Shown: one piece after another, positions 5,485-9,337 of the stretch
Layout: the number at the start of each line of letters is the position of its first letter
Position numbering within the stretch: position 1 is the stretch's first letter
NCBI GenBank assembly: GCA_030639985.1
Contig: DAOWKG010000290.1
Location: forward strand, 1-9,337
From: Desulfuromonadaceae bacterium
Lineage (GTDB): Bacteria; Desulfobacterota; Desulfuromonadia; Desulfuromonadales; Geopsychrobacteraceae
Reading direction: 5' to 3'
Length of the DNA stretch: 9,337 bases
Notes under the pieces: generated by a model
Seen by the model: only the letters and a program-made list of their open reading frames with translations
What the model was told of the DNA's origin: nothing
The model's database searches: none
Made by a program: the position numbers and the translations under genes

Positions 5485-7161
5485 ATGAGCGAAGACACTA
5501 AAAAAATCATCTATTCGATGATGCGAGTCGGCAAAAGTTACAACAAGCAACCAATCATTAAAGACATCTCTCTCTCCTATTATTATGGTGCCAAAATCGG
5601 GGTGCTCGGTTTAAACGGTTCGGGAAAATCGACGTTGCTACGCATCATGGCAGGAGTTGATAAAGAATTTAACGGCGAAGCGGTATTATCGGATGGCTAC
5701 AGTGTTGGCTACCTCGAGCAAGAGCCGCAACTTGATGACAGTAAAACCGTGCGGGAAACGGTCAAAGAAGGGGTACAGGAGATTGTCGACCTGTTGGCGG
5801 AGTTTGAAGAGATCAACAATGCCTTCGCCGATCCCGACTGCGATATGGACAAACTACTGGTGCGTCAGGCAGAAGTTCAGGATAAACTCGATGCTGCCGA
5901 TGCCTGGGAACTCGATTCCAGACTGGAGTTAGCCGAAGAAGCGTTACGTTGCCCGCCACCGGAAACATTGGTCAAAGTTTTGTCGGGAGGGGAAAAACGG
6001 CGGGTGGCACTATGTCGACTACTGTTGCAAAAACCCGATATTCTTCTCCTTGATGAACCAACCAACCACCTCGATGCCGAAACCGTCGCCTGGCTGGAAC
6101 AACATCTACAACGCTATCCCGGCACCGTTATCGCTGTCACTCACGACCGCTATTTTCTCGATAATGTTGCCGGTTGGATTCTCGAACTCGACCGGGGTCA
6201 CGGAATCCCCTGGAAGGGCAACTATTCAAGTTGGCTGGAGCAAAAACAAGAACGGCTCCGTAAAGAAGAAAAATCGGAGAGCAAGCGACAACAAACGCTC
6301 CAACGTGAACTCGAATGGATTCGGATGTCACCCAAGGGGAGACGCACCAAGGCACAAGCCCGGATCAATTCCTACGAAGATCTGCTTGGTAACGCCGCCC
6401 TCGAAAAAGAAAAAACCCTCGAACTCTACATTCCACCGGGTCCACGCCTTGGTGGAATAGTTGTTGAAGCGACCGAGGTGAGCAAAGGCTTTGAAGAACG
6501 GCTCCTGATTGACAATCTCAGTTTCAATCTTCCGGCCGGTGGTATTGTCGGGGTGATTGGCCCCAATGGTGCCGGCAAGTCGACCCTGTTTAATATGATT
6601 ACTGCTCAAGAGCAACCAGATAGCGGCAGCTTCAAGGTTGGCGATACCGTGCAGCTTGGATATGTCGATCAGAACCGGACCCTGGATGGCGATAAAACCA
6701 TTTGGGAAGAAGTGACCGGCGGTCAGGATATGCTCCAGATCGGCGGGCAATCGGTAAATTCACGTGCCTATGTAGCCCGTTTCAACTTTTCCGGCAGTGA
6801 TCAGCAAAAAAAAGTCGGGGTGCTTTCAGGTGGGGAACGAAACCGGGTCCATTTAGCAAAAATGTTGCGTGAAGAAGCCAATGTATTACTACTGGATGAA
6901 CCGACCAATGATCTTGACGTCAATACCTTACGGGCACTTGAAGAAGGGCTGGAAAACTTTGGTGGTTGCGCGGTAATAATCAGTCACGACCGCTGGTTCC
7001 TGGATCGCATTGCCACCCATATTCTCGCCTTTGAAGGAGATTCACAGGTCGTATGGTTTGCCGGCAACTATTCAGATTATGAAGCAGATCGCAAACGGCG
7101 ACTCGGCAAAGCCGCCGACCAACCACACCGGATCAGATACCGCTCATTGACACGGCAGTAG
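5485..7161 (+). CDS. ettA: Energy-dependent translational throttle protein EttA (ABC-F ATPase, 558 aa)
   Basis: A soluble ABC-F protein with two ATPase domains and no membrane segments; the length fits EttA (about 555 aa). Domain 1 has Walker [10 protein letters not shown] (42-50), signature LSGGE (166-170), Walker B ILLLDEP (186-192, catalytic E191) and switch H220. Domain 2 has GPNGAGKST (359-367), LSGGE (447-451), VLLLDEP (467-473, E472) and H501. An arm-like insertion (about 95-140, with DAADAWELD) and the inter-domain linker with [22 protein letters not shown] split around residues 277-298 are the EttA hallmarks. The linker reaches the P-site tRNA. EttA binds the ribosomal E site and gates the first peptide bond according to ATP/ADP. 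The start ATG has AAGGA (5470-5474) 10 nt upstream. It lies 61 nt after the HD-GYP gene with no strong terminator between, so it may be partly cotranscribed; it is followed by a strong terminator. Confidence 0.97.
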
Positions 7162-7215: not shown

Positions 7216-7257
7216 AATAAAACAGCCGGGCAAACTACAGCCCGGCTGTTTTATTTT
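7216..7257 (+). terminator. Strong intrinsic terminator of ettA
   Basis: A perfect 16-bp stem has arms at 7216-7231 (AATAAAACAGCCGGGC) and 7240-7255 (GCCCGGCTGTTTTATT) with an 8-nt loop. The core is GC-rich and the 3' side is T-rich (GTTTTATTTT). The A-rich 5' flank means it could also stop transcription from the other strand. It lies 55 nt after the ettA stop and separates ettA from the chemoreceptor. A smaller 7-bp hairpin with one G-T pair (7188-7194 with 7199-7205) lies just upstream. Confidence 0.92.
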
Positions 7258-7313
7258 AAGACTAAGTCATTAGAGTAATTGACACCTTATTCCCCCAAAT
7301 ATTACGTAAGATT

Positions 7314-7346: not shown

Positions 7347-7372
7347 ACGTGCGGCCAAAACGTGCGGCCAAA
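7347..7372 (+). repeat. Perfect tandem duplication of a 13-mer (ACGTGCGGCCAAA x2)
   Basis: Two identical, directly abutting 13-bp copies (7347-7359 and 7360-7372) lie 35 nt upstream of the chemoreceptor start and just downstream of the candidate -10. The position suits an operator or an untranslated-leader element; a slippage duplication is equally possible. The GC-rich core stands out from the AT-rich flanks. Confidence 0.6.
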
Positions 7373-7407: not shown

Positions 7408-8967
7408 ATGTTCAACAATCTAAAAATCGGCACTAAAATGTTGCTGCTTTCGGGAACTATCCTTACTTTATTGTTAGCCCTCCTTCTGTGGGGTATGCAT
7501 GGTCTAACTACTACCGTAGACAACGGCATCGAGGTTTCTAGCGGCAGCAAACTCCGTAGTCAGCTGATTCACTTGGAAAACAAGCATCTGAAATGGGCAC
7601 ACAAAGTCAGAGATTTCGTTGATGACCCAACCATTACCGAGCTAAAAGTCAATCTGGACCATAAAACTTGTGCGCTTGGCACCTGGTATAATAGTGATGC
7701 TCGTCGAGATGCCGAAAAACTAATACCTGCAATTAAAGCAGAGCTACAAGCCCTCGCAGAGCCTCATCGCCTGATGCACGAATCTGGGAGCCATATTAAA
7801 GAAGCCAAAAGTAGGTCTAACGGCAGCAATGATGAACGCAGGAGTATTTACAAAAAAGAAACTGCTCCAAATTTGATCATAGTTGGCAAACTCTTAGCGA
7901 AAATATCGAAGATATCCGAGCAACAAATTATGTCCGACAGCGAAATGATAGCTGCCGCCAGCAACACCAAAAAGGGGATGCTCGGTCTCGGAGCCATTGC
8001 ATTACTGTGCGGCGCAATATTGGCTATTTTCATCACCCGCTCGATAACTGCACCGATGAAAAAAACAGTTGTAATGATAGAAGATCTTGAGAGTGGACAC
8101 CTCCACACCCGCCTGCAAATGGATCGTAAAGATGAAATTGGCCAACTGGCTGAAACCATGGATCGCCTCGCAGACTCACTCCAAAATGAAATTGTTGCTT
8201 CCCTGCAAAAACTTGCCAACGGTGATCTTACTTTCGAGATACAGCCACGCGACGAGCAAGATCTGGTTCGTGGCAGCTTGAAAAAACTGGGCGAAGACCT
8301 TAACCAGATCATGTTGCAGATTCAAACTGCCAGCGAGCAAATTGCTTCCGGCAGTTCACAAGTCAGTACATCATCTCAAAGCCTCTCTGATGGAACAGCA
8401 CAGTCGGCGGCTTCGGTCGAAGAGATTAGCAGCTCAATAAATGAAATCAGTAGTCGTACCGAAACCAGTACCGACTATGCCCAGCAAGCTAATCAGCTAT
8501 CAAGAAGTGCCAGTGACTCGGCAAATGCTGGCAGTGAAAGAATGTCAGAAATGATCAACGCCATGGGCGAAATTAACGCTGCCTGGCAGGATATTAACAA
8601 GATCATCAAAGTCATTGATGAGATAGCCTTCCAAACCAACCTTTTGGCTCTTAATGCGGCCGTAGAAGCTGCCCGCGCCGGCCAACATGGCAAAGGTTTT
8701 GCCGTGGTTGCCGAAGAAGTACGCAATCTGGCGGCTCGAAGTGCCAAAGCCGCCTCTGAAACAGCAGAGCTGATTGAAGGCTCAATCGAAAAAGCATGTA
8801 ATGGCACCAAGATAGCCGAACGTACCTCTGAAGCACTGGGAGGAATTGTCGATTCAATTGGAAAAGTTGCGGAGTTGATTGGAGATATTGCCACCTCAAG
8901 CAATGAACAATCGCAGGGTATTTCCCAAATTAACATTGGCATGCAGCAGATTGATCAGGTGATTTAA
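7408..8967 (+). CDS. Methyl-accepting chemotaxis protein with periplasmic CZB domain, cut short by an in-frame TAA (519 aa)
   Basis: An inner-membrane chemoreceptor. Order: TM1 (about 11-29); periplasmic domain (30-188) containing a CZB zinc-binding motif with candidate ligands H60 (KHLKW), C88 ([11 protein letters not shown]), H120 and H124 (EPHRLMH); TM2 (about 189-210); HAMP (about 211-258, [11 protein letters not shown]); a second HAMP-like unit (about 262-301, [10 protein letters not shown]); then the coiled-coil signalling domain, with the CheA/CheW-binding tip at 405-442 ([35 protein letters not shown]). The His-x3-His spacing and the Cys between are as in known CZB domains, which bind zinc and have been linked to zinc or hypochlorite sensing. 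TAA at 8965-8967 falls inside the descending helix, before the EESAA-type methylation segment. The 519-aa product therefore has the tip but lacks the second adaptation region and everything after it. It may fold and signal poorly or be locked. The frame continues downstream (see the pseudogene entry). Confidence 0.93.
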
Positions 8968-9192
8968 CAAAACACTGCTACGGCCGAAGAGAGTGCCGCA
9001 ACCAGCGAAGAACTATCAAGTCAGGCGGCAGGACTTAAGCATCAACTCAGTCGCTTTAAACTCAAAGGTGGGCACAATCAGAGTTACCCTCCAACACCGG
9101 CAAGCCAACTTTCTCTGCTACCGTAAGCGAATTCCAGCGGCTGGGGAACCGTTGCAGCCACGCCGACACAGCAACAACCAAGTGATGGGCAA

Positions 9193-9337
9193 ATGTTCCA
9201 GTGGAATAATAAATACAATACTGGGGTGAAATTAATGGATCAGCAACACCAACGCCGGTTTGATCTGATCAATCAACTGTTCCAATGTATGAAGGATGGC
9301 GGAGATCGAATGATGGTTGGCGAAATCATTGATGAGC
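9193..9337 (+). CDS. Hemerythrin domain, N-terminal part (runs off right edge); C-terminal module of the interrupted receptor or a separate small protein
   Basis: From ATG 9193 the frame reads MFQWNNKYNTGVKLMDQQH and then RRFDLINQLF. This is the N-terminal arm and first helix of bacterial hemerythrins: W4, the Y-x-x-G-V pattern, and D-x-Q-H whose His (H19, codon 9247-9249) is the first di-iron ligand. The remaining ligands lie beyond the window. Hemerythrins bind O2, and sometimes NO, at a non-heme di-iron centre. It is in the same frame as the chemoreceptor and preceded by a linker-like stretch, so it was probably its cytoplasmic sensing tail. ATG 9193 has only a weak upstream G-rich stretch (GATGGG, 9184-9189), so independent translation is possible but not well supported. 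The start given is the first ATG after the second TAA, not an established one. Confidence 0.75.
   Translation, partial: MFQWNNKYNTGVKLMDQQHQRRFDLINQLFQCMKDGGDRMMVGEIIDE

Follow-up and report, generated by a model that had tools for sequence, protein, structure and literature searches.

The window, the whole 9,337-nucleotide stretch of DNA that was analysed, carries a chemoreceptor gene whose reading frame is interrupted by two in-frame TAA codons. It makes up an entire contig (C271, 9337 bases) of a Desulfuromusa-like draft genome (G000; 2,061,131 bases in 345 contigs, 90.15% complete) and ends inside a hemerythrin (Hr) domain. The receptor gene and the features around it are arranged as follows.

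5485..7161, plus strand: ABC-F gene, EttA by NCBIfam, upstream of the receptor gene
7237..7259, plus strand: terminator-like hairpin with a T-rich tail in the intergenic region from ettA to the receptor gene, by pattern match alone
7408..8967, plus strand: 5' part of the broken gene, 519 amino acids to the first TAA, with CZB, HAMP and MCP signalling profiles
8965..8967, plus strand: first in-frame TAA, where 6/6 orthologues have Gln (CAA/CAG) in the codon alignment
8968..9123, plus strand: MCP C-terminal tail and linker, 52 residues past the first stop in an unchanged frame, by alignment
9124..9126, plus strand: second in-frame TAA, in the linker, where 5/6 orthologues have Gln (CAA/CAG) and one has His (CAT)
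9127..9337, plus strand: remainder of the linker and residues 1-48 of the Hr domain (from Met 9193), by alignment, cut at the contig end

A single frame from the ATG at 7408 crosses the TAA codons at 8965-8967 and 9124-9126 into the Hr N-terminus, reading MFNN...IDQVI, stop, QNTATAEESAATSEELSSQAAGLKHQLSRFKLKGGHNQSYPPTPASQLSLLP, stop, ANSSGW...MFQWNNKYNTGVKLMDQQHQRRFDLINQLFQCMKDGGDRMMVGEIIDE. The same frame is kept to the window end, so the original prediction of a frame running from the MCP start through two stops into a hemerythrin N-terminus without an indel is confirmed up to that point. Pfam profiles matched to the 7408-8964 product are PF13682 at residues 60-130, PF00672 at 208-259 (6.1e-15) and PF00015 at 363-518 (3e-50), and the product thus contains the HAMP and MCP signalling domains of a DcrH-like receptor. 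The CZB zinc-binding profile (residues 60-130, window 7585-7797) sits N-terminal to HAMP, an unusual placement for that family. The tail beyond the first stop contains TATAEESAAT (residues 523-532), which we take, by an assumed rule for such motifs, to be the second methylation-type motif. The first ligand His of the Hr domain (MDQQH) is retained in the window; a Pfam search of the post-stop pieces, which are short, returned no Hr hit. Two adjacent changes, L626R and V627F in alignment columns, follow the first iron-ligand His at columns invariant in six relatives, and two compensating one-base indels are an equally possible origin for them (window 9251-9270). About 35 bases 5' of the receptor start, ACGTGCGGCCAAA occurs twice in tandem as a 13-bp direct repeat (window 7347-7372).

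Intact relatives and predicted parent function

Close relatives of the interrupted gene are whole. Six close orthologues (L036-L041), all from MAGs assigned to Desulfuromusa (4), Desulfuromonadaceae (1) and Deltaproteobacteria (1), are 71-76% identical over residues 1-519, and each is one unbroken frame with a full terminal Hr domain. All six align codon by codon across both stops into the Hr domain, and none has a stop at either TAA position. A family search of 44 genomes with a 724-aa relative as query aligned the locus on C271 over query residues 1-641 with both TAA codons inside, the one case of two TAA codons among the matches listed, and found an unbroken, near-complete fusion in at least eight other family genomes (G002, G004, G005, G008, G011, G012, G049, G056); the TAA listed for G005 is that gene's own terminal stop. 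Because the orthologues align codon by codon through both stops, and in view of the family search, the continuous frame across them is not a matter of chance. The same evidence bears out the proposal that the locus is a broken DcrH-like MCP-Hr sensor. The Desulfuromusa-type fusions annotated as bacteriohemerythrin (720-731 aa; P0002-P0007, P0009, P0010 and L036-L041) are direct orthologues at 71-78% identity with Hr terminal; these fusions are whole, whereas the G000 copy is broken and would lie between ettA and ispG.

The architecture of the intact relatives resembles that of DcrH from Desulfovibrio vulgaris. This prototype starts with a periplasmic part, continues with HAMP and then MCP, and ends in the Hr domain; it binds O2 tightly, and the Hr ligand pattern is H-HxxxE-HxxxH-HxxxxD (PMC9388753). 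The intact relatives agree with DcrH in part order (N-terminal part, HAMP, MCP, C-terminal Hr) and in ligand pattern. Unlike DcrH, the G000 gene has an N-terminal region that matches the CZB profile, and its frame holds two stops and, further on, a frameshift. Since the intact relatives match the part order of DcrH, they probably sense O2 or redox state and feed CheA. In the parent protein, the cytoplasmic Hr domain would respond at its di-iron site to a change in O2 or redox state and so, via the MCP bundle, modulate CheA, as proposed for DcrH.

The probable missing end of the gene

What is likely the end of the gene lies on a second contig of the same assembly. A search with the last 86 residues of a relative placed the missing part at the extreme end of contig C136, where it occupies two overlapping frames.

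G000:C136 7376-7176, minus strand: Hr remainder, by sequence search, carrying a +1 frameshift

Read from the contig end, C136 begins with NNYPPLEAHQQIHKNFVDKVVSYADKLKNGG... and continues, one frame over, with GERMPPSEIFNFLKDWLISHIEKEDRDGYGKYLRNR and a stop; the +1 frameshift falls at a stretch of five G, some 90 bases in from the contig end. Counted against L036, the gap between C271 and C136 is about 18 codons, or roughly 50 bases. The original prediction had proposed extending the sequence to the end of the Hr domain and checking the remaining iron ligands. On C136, HQQIH and HIEKED are present, the latter past the frameshift, the HxxxE position falls inside the contig gap, and the first His lies in the window. 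The C-terminal Hr domain of this gene does not share an open frame with the receptor part, being separated from it by two TAA codons and, on C136, a frameshift, and its ancestry as a DcrH-like fusion is read from the alignment.

Synteny supports placing the two contigs side by side. Beyond the remnant, C136 carries ispG (NCBIfam), and its DNA matches the DNA adjoining ettA in G002 at 78% over 1127 bp; among the ettA loci compared, only that of G002 matched this part of C136. G002 has ettA beside ispG; in G000 the two genes sit on separate contigs, and a part of the receptor adjoins each of them. From this we infer that C271 and C136 are probably neighbours. Between the receptor remnant and ispG lies an inverted repeat, TTAAGGGGACATGTCC ... 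GTGTCCCCTTAA (minus strand; L263, G000:C136, 7100-7135), with the look of a palindromic element. The pattern of two stops without an indel arises because C271 ends before the frameshifted Hr remainder, and the puzzle dissolves once the gene is followed onto the other contig.

Selection, assembly quality and competing explanations

Codons past the stops look to be under purifying selection. We used a codon model with 61 states and F3x4 frequencies, in which the window branch had its own omega and all other branches shared a second. For the 122 post-stop codons omega is 0.069 on the window branch versus 0.111 elsewhere, with an upper 95% bound of about 0.145 (profile, by interpolation), and an omega of 1 is rejected (2dlnL 43.6). 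At columns where the other six sequences are invariant, unique changes number 2/32 and 3/28 past the stops and 33/326 in the MCP part, where the relatives have 4 to 25. The MCP part shows a mild rise on the window branch (omega 0.130 versus 0.073, 2dlnL 7.6); among the seven branches tested for this part, tcs42 also reaches 0.126, and on two others omega is lowered, with test values that are larger. For other G000 genes the same branch gives small, unclear rises (2dlnL 0.10 for ettA, 2.09 for HD-GYP, 0.44 for MCP-a and 2.30 for cheA). The purifying post-stop omega therefore argues for a recent break, in line with the very recent inactivation suggested earlier. We infer that constraint on the gene has been lacking over less than roughly one tenth of its branch, an approximate figure given that branch lengths are near saturation. 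An omega of 0.069 means either that the break is too recent to see or that there has been no relaxation.

Other lesions in the assembly are few. A nonsense scan was confined to DNA that 685 coding ORFs of relatives covered with at least 55% identity, a scan with all relative ORFs having been swamped by antisense shadow ORFs, and rows with weak flanks were filtered out. It listed 22 positions, of which we placed 20 ahead of gene starts on visual inspection (three re-inspected); the two receptor TAA codons are the only interior nonsense accepted in 66,458 bases of 71 G000 contigs. A frameshift scan at looser thresholds, with C136 added (72 contigs, 66,654 bases), found only the frameshift on C136. 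Coding-potential scans of 435,873 bases of G000, whose candidates were judged by eye and were mostly ordinary neighbouring genes in one frame, so that weaker cases can be missed, yielded two further single in-frame stops. One is in alaS (named by NCBIfam; L171, G000:C276, minus strand, about 6019-6021), where TAA stands in place of the Lys present in 11/11 same-genus relatives found. This is the only alaS copy found in G000, and both sides of the TAA are otherwise open and conserved. As alaS is essential, the stop is hardly a real loss and probably reflects an error in the consensus or a minority variant. The other is in an L-glutamate gamma-semialdehyde dehydrogenase gene (TIGR01236; L151, G000:C14, 655-657, plus strand), which has TGA against TGG (Trp) in 10/10 relative loci from nine genomes. 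The same scans of parts of G008 (316 kb) and G001 (419 kb) left no in-frame-stop candidate. The original prediction had proposed looking for in-frame TAA inside other conserved genes; alaS provides one, and the dehydrogenase codon is TGA instead.

These observations are best explained by a recent pseudogene of a DcrH-like, predicted O2- or redox-sensing chemoreceptor, disabled by two TAA codons and, on the likely continuation, a +1 frameshift, a case of ordinary fresh gene death to which we give a probability of roughly 0.78. If the assembly is right, the gene carries more than one disabling lesion while its relatives are whole. The lesions cluster in this one gene, with no other accepted interior stop or frameshift in about 66.5 kb of homology-covered DNA. 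Against the pseudogene count the post-stop omega, which is not raised, so that decay itself is not visible there, and the stops in alaS and the dehydrogenase gene, by which the assembly holds some stops that are hardly real losses. Of the two marks of a plain pseudogene named at the outset, the frameshift in the Hr remainder was found and relaxed selection was not seen.

The main rival, unlikely yet to be reckoned with, is that assembly or sequencing errors at weak contig ends have created the lesions and the living gene is whole. It keeps its share because none of the three lesions is more than about 370 bases away from the contig ends flanking the gap, where assembly is weakest; in addition, the frameshift sits in a G run, and alaS, of which one copy was found, carries a stop at a Lys column elsewhere in the genome. 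Random error producing two nonsense codons would, however, have brought many more missense changes, and past the stops only 5 unique changes occur at 60 invariant columns and omega stays at 0.069. Elsewhere, scanning about 436 kb turned up two nonsense codons, although some may have escaped the scan, and two in one 2-kb gene are unlikely to be due to chance. The alaS and dehydrogenase stops are nevertheless a warning that the consensus of this MAG may hold errors.

Considerably less probable is a stable shortened receptor, in which the 519-aa MCP works without an Hr domain and whatever follows it is a relic. The match to the Pfam signalling domain extends as far as position 171 of 172, and homologues without Hr exist: P0008 (588 aa), P0015 (587 aa) and a G018 copy (581 aa) share with the truncated G000 product the form of a receptor lacking this domain. 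These three keep the MCP tail and end in the linker (P0008 and P0015 at a stop or contig end), whereas the first stop in the window falls earlier, inside the tail. The second methylation-type motif, present in all four relatives checked, is retained in P0008 and P0015 and lost here. Residue 545 of the reference is passed by 117 of the best 120 of 7998 homologues, the exceptions being the window protein, P0029 and P0044, so these best-listed homologues keep the tail lost at the first stop. In P0012 a frame change was noted by eye in the linker. Since the first stop removes the tail with its second methylation-type motif, the 519-aa product, if made, would likely adapt poorly; lacking both the last part of the signalling coiled coil and one methylation-type motif, it would probably be no normal receptor.

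Regulated readthrough, recoding of TAA, or a split into a receptor and a free hemerythrin are very improbable. The post-stop codons still look selected and other conserved G000 genes have in-frame stops, but the stops stand for Gln, Gln and Lys (TAA) and Trp (TGA), not for a single residue. TAA is the commonest terminator, ending 71/161 long ORFs on 51 sampled G000 contigs, which agrees with the earlier view of TAA as a normal stop that makes recoding unlikely; this and the differing residues rule out genome-wide recoding. Of 24 tRNA genes examined with ARAGORN, which are not the full set and include two Gln genes, both ttg, none has a stop-reading anticodon, and the proposed check for a TAA suppressor thus came back negative for this set. 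Should C136 be the continuation, both a product of double readthrough and a free Hr domain begun at the ATG at 9193 lose their last part, with its HxxxxD ligand pair, to the frameshift. That start was considered and rejected: 4/6 relatives have Met in its column, visual inspection revealed no clear ribosome site, and the frameshift lies in the remainder. With this frameshift, and with no stops in six relatives, neither the regulated readthrough nor the deliberate splitting raised by the original prediction finds support. A systematic C-to-T artefact, also raised there, would fit both receptor stops and the dehydrogenase TGA; the change from Lys to TAA in alaS does not fit and speaks against damage purely of this kind. 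It is equally far-fetched that this Desulfuromusa-like lineage tolerates in-frame stops by leaky termination, with alaS and the dehydrogenase made by readthrough.

Gene order and hemerythrins in the genus

The position of the G000 receptor gene is unlike that in most relatives examined. No MCP gene follows ettA in 10/13 same-genus relatives, with 1.5 kb downstream available, and the contigs of the remaining three end too soon. The fusion adjoins cheA in 5/6 same-genus regions examined that carry a full orthologue (G004, G005, G008, G011, G012). G001, G004, G008, G011 and G012 share the order miaA (divergent), a 455-aa-type gene, MCP-a, MCP-Hr and cheA, except that in G012 the contig breaks off inside cheA and in G001 the receptor starts with a different N-terminal part; in G005, MCP-Hr precedes cheA with no match to MCP-a. 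In G000, miaA lies directly before cheA (C284) and MCP-a is on another contig (C78) in other surroundings. The receptor gene would have left the che cluster before, or while, breaking. The G002 orthologue is whole like the other fusions, yet lies away from che genes like the G000 copy, on a contig of 9.6 kb that matches none of miaA, the 455-aa gene and cheA (L098, G002:C406). This counts against a move special to G000, and it seems that the receptor gene either moved repeatedly or did so earlier than G000.

Hr domains appear to be missing from the G000 assembly, which keeps other chemotaxis and motility genes. G000 has five PF00015 places and retains flhA and cheW matches. Queries with the receptor gave 8 matches in G000 versus 8-32 in the eight same-genus genomes with Hr, and by these counts a shrinkage of the receptor set is not clearly shown. 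A Pfam search for Hr gave no match in G000 and 2-5 matches in each of those eight genomes, which are the only ones with any among the 14 of the genus; G003 has Hr without flhA, and G000 flhA without Hr. In five same-genus genomes (1.4-2.1 Mb, 63-88% complete) neither flhA nor Hr nor a close receptor gave a match, pointing either to a reduced non-motile branch or to sequence that is missing. As no Hr domain was scored in the assembly, the G000 lineage has likely lost its hemerythrins.

In the library of papers searched, none joins Desulfuromusa with hemerythrin and chemotaxis. For two Desulfuromonas strains, 34 and 27 pseudogenes are reported as predicted, alongside rearrangements and MCP genes that are dispersed (PMC8235581), so that decay and scattering of such genes are already described in the wider group. 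If real, the broken receptor of G000 would be one step in the loss of oxygen-sensing chemotaxis in the genus.
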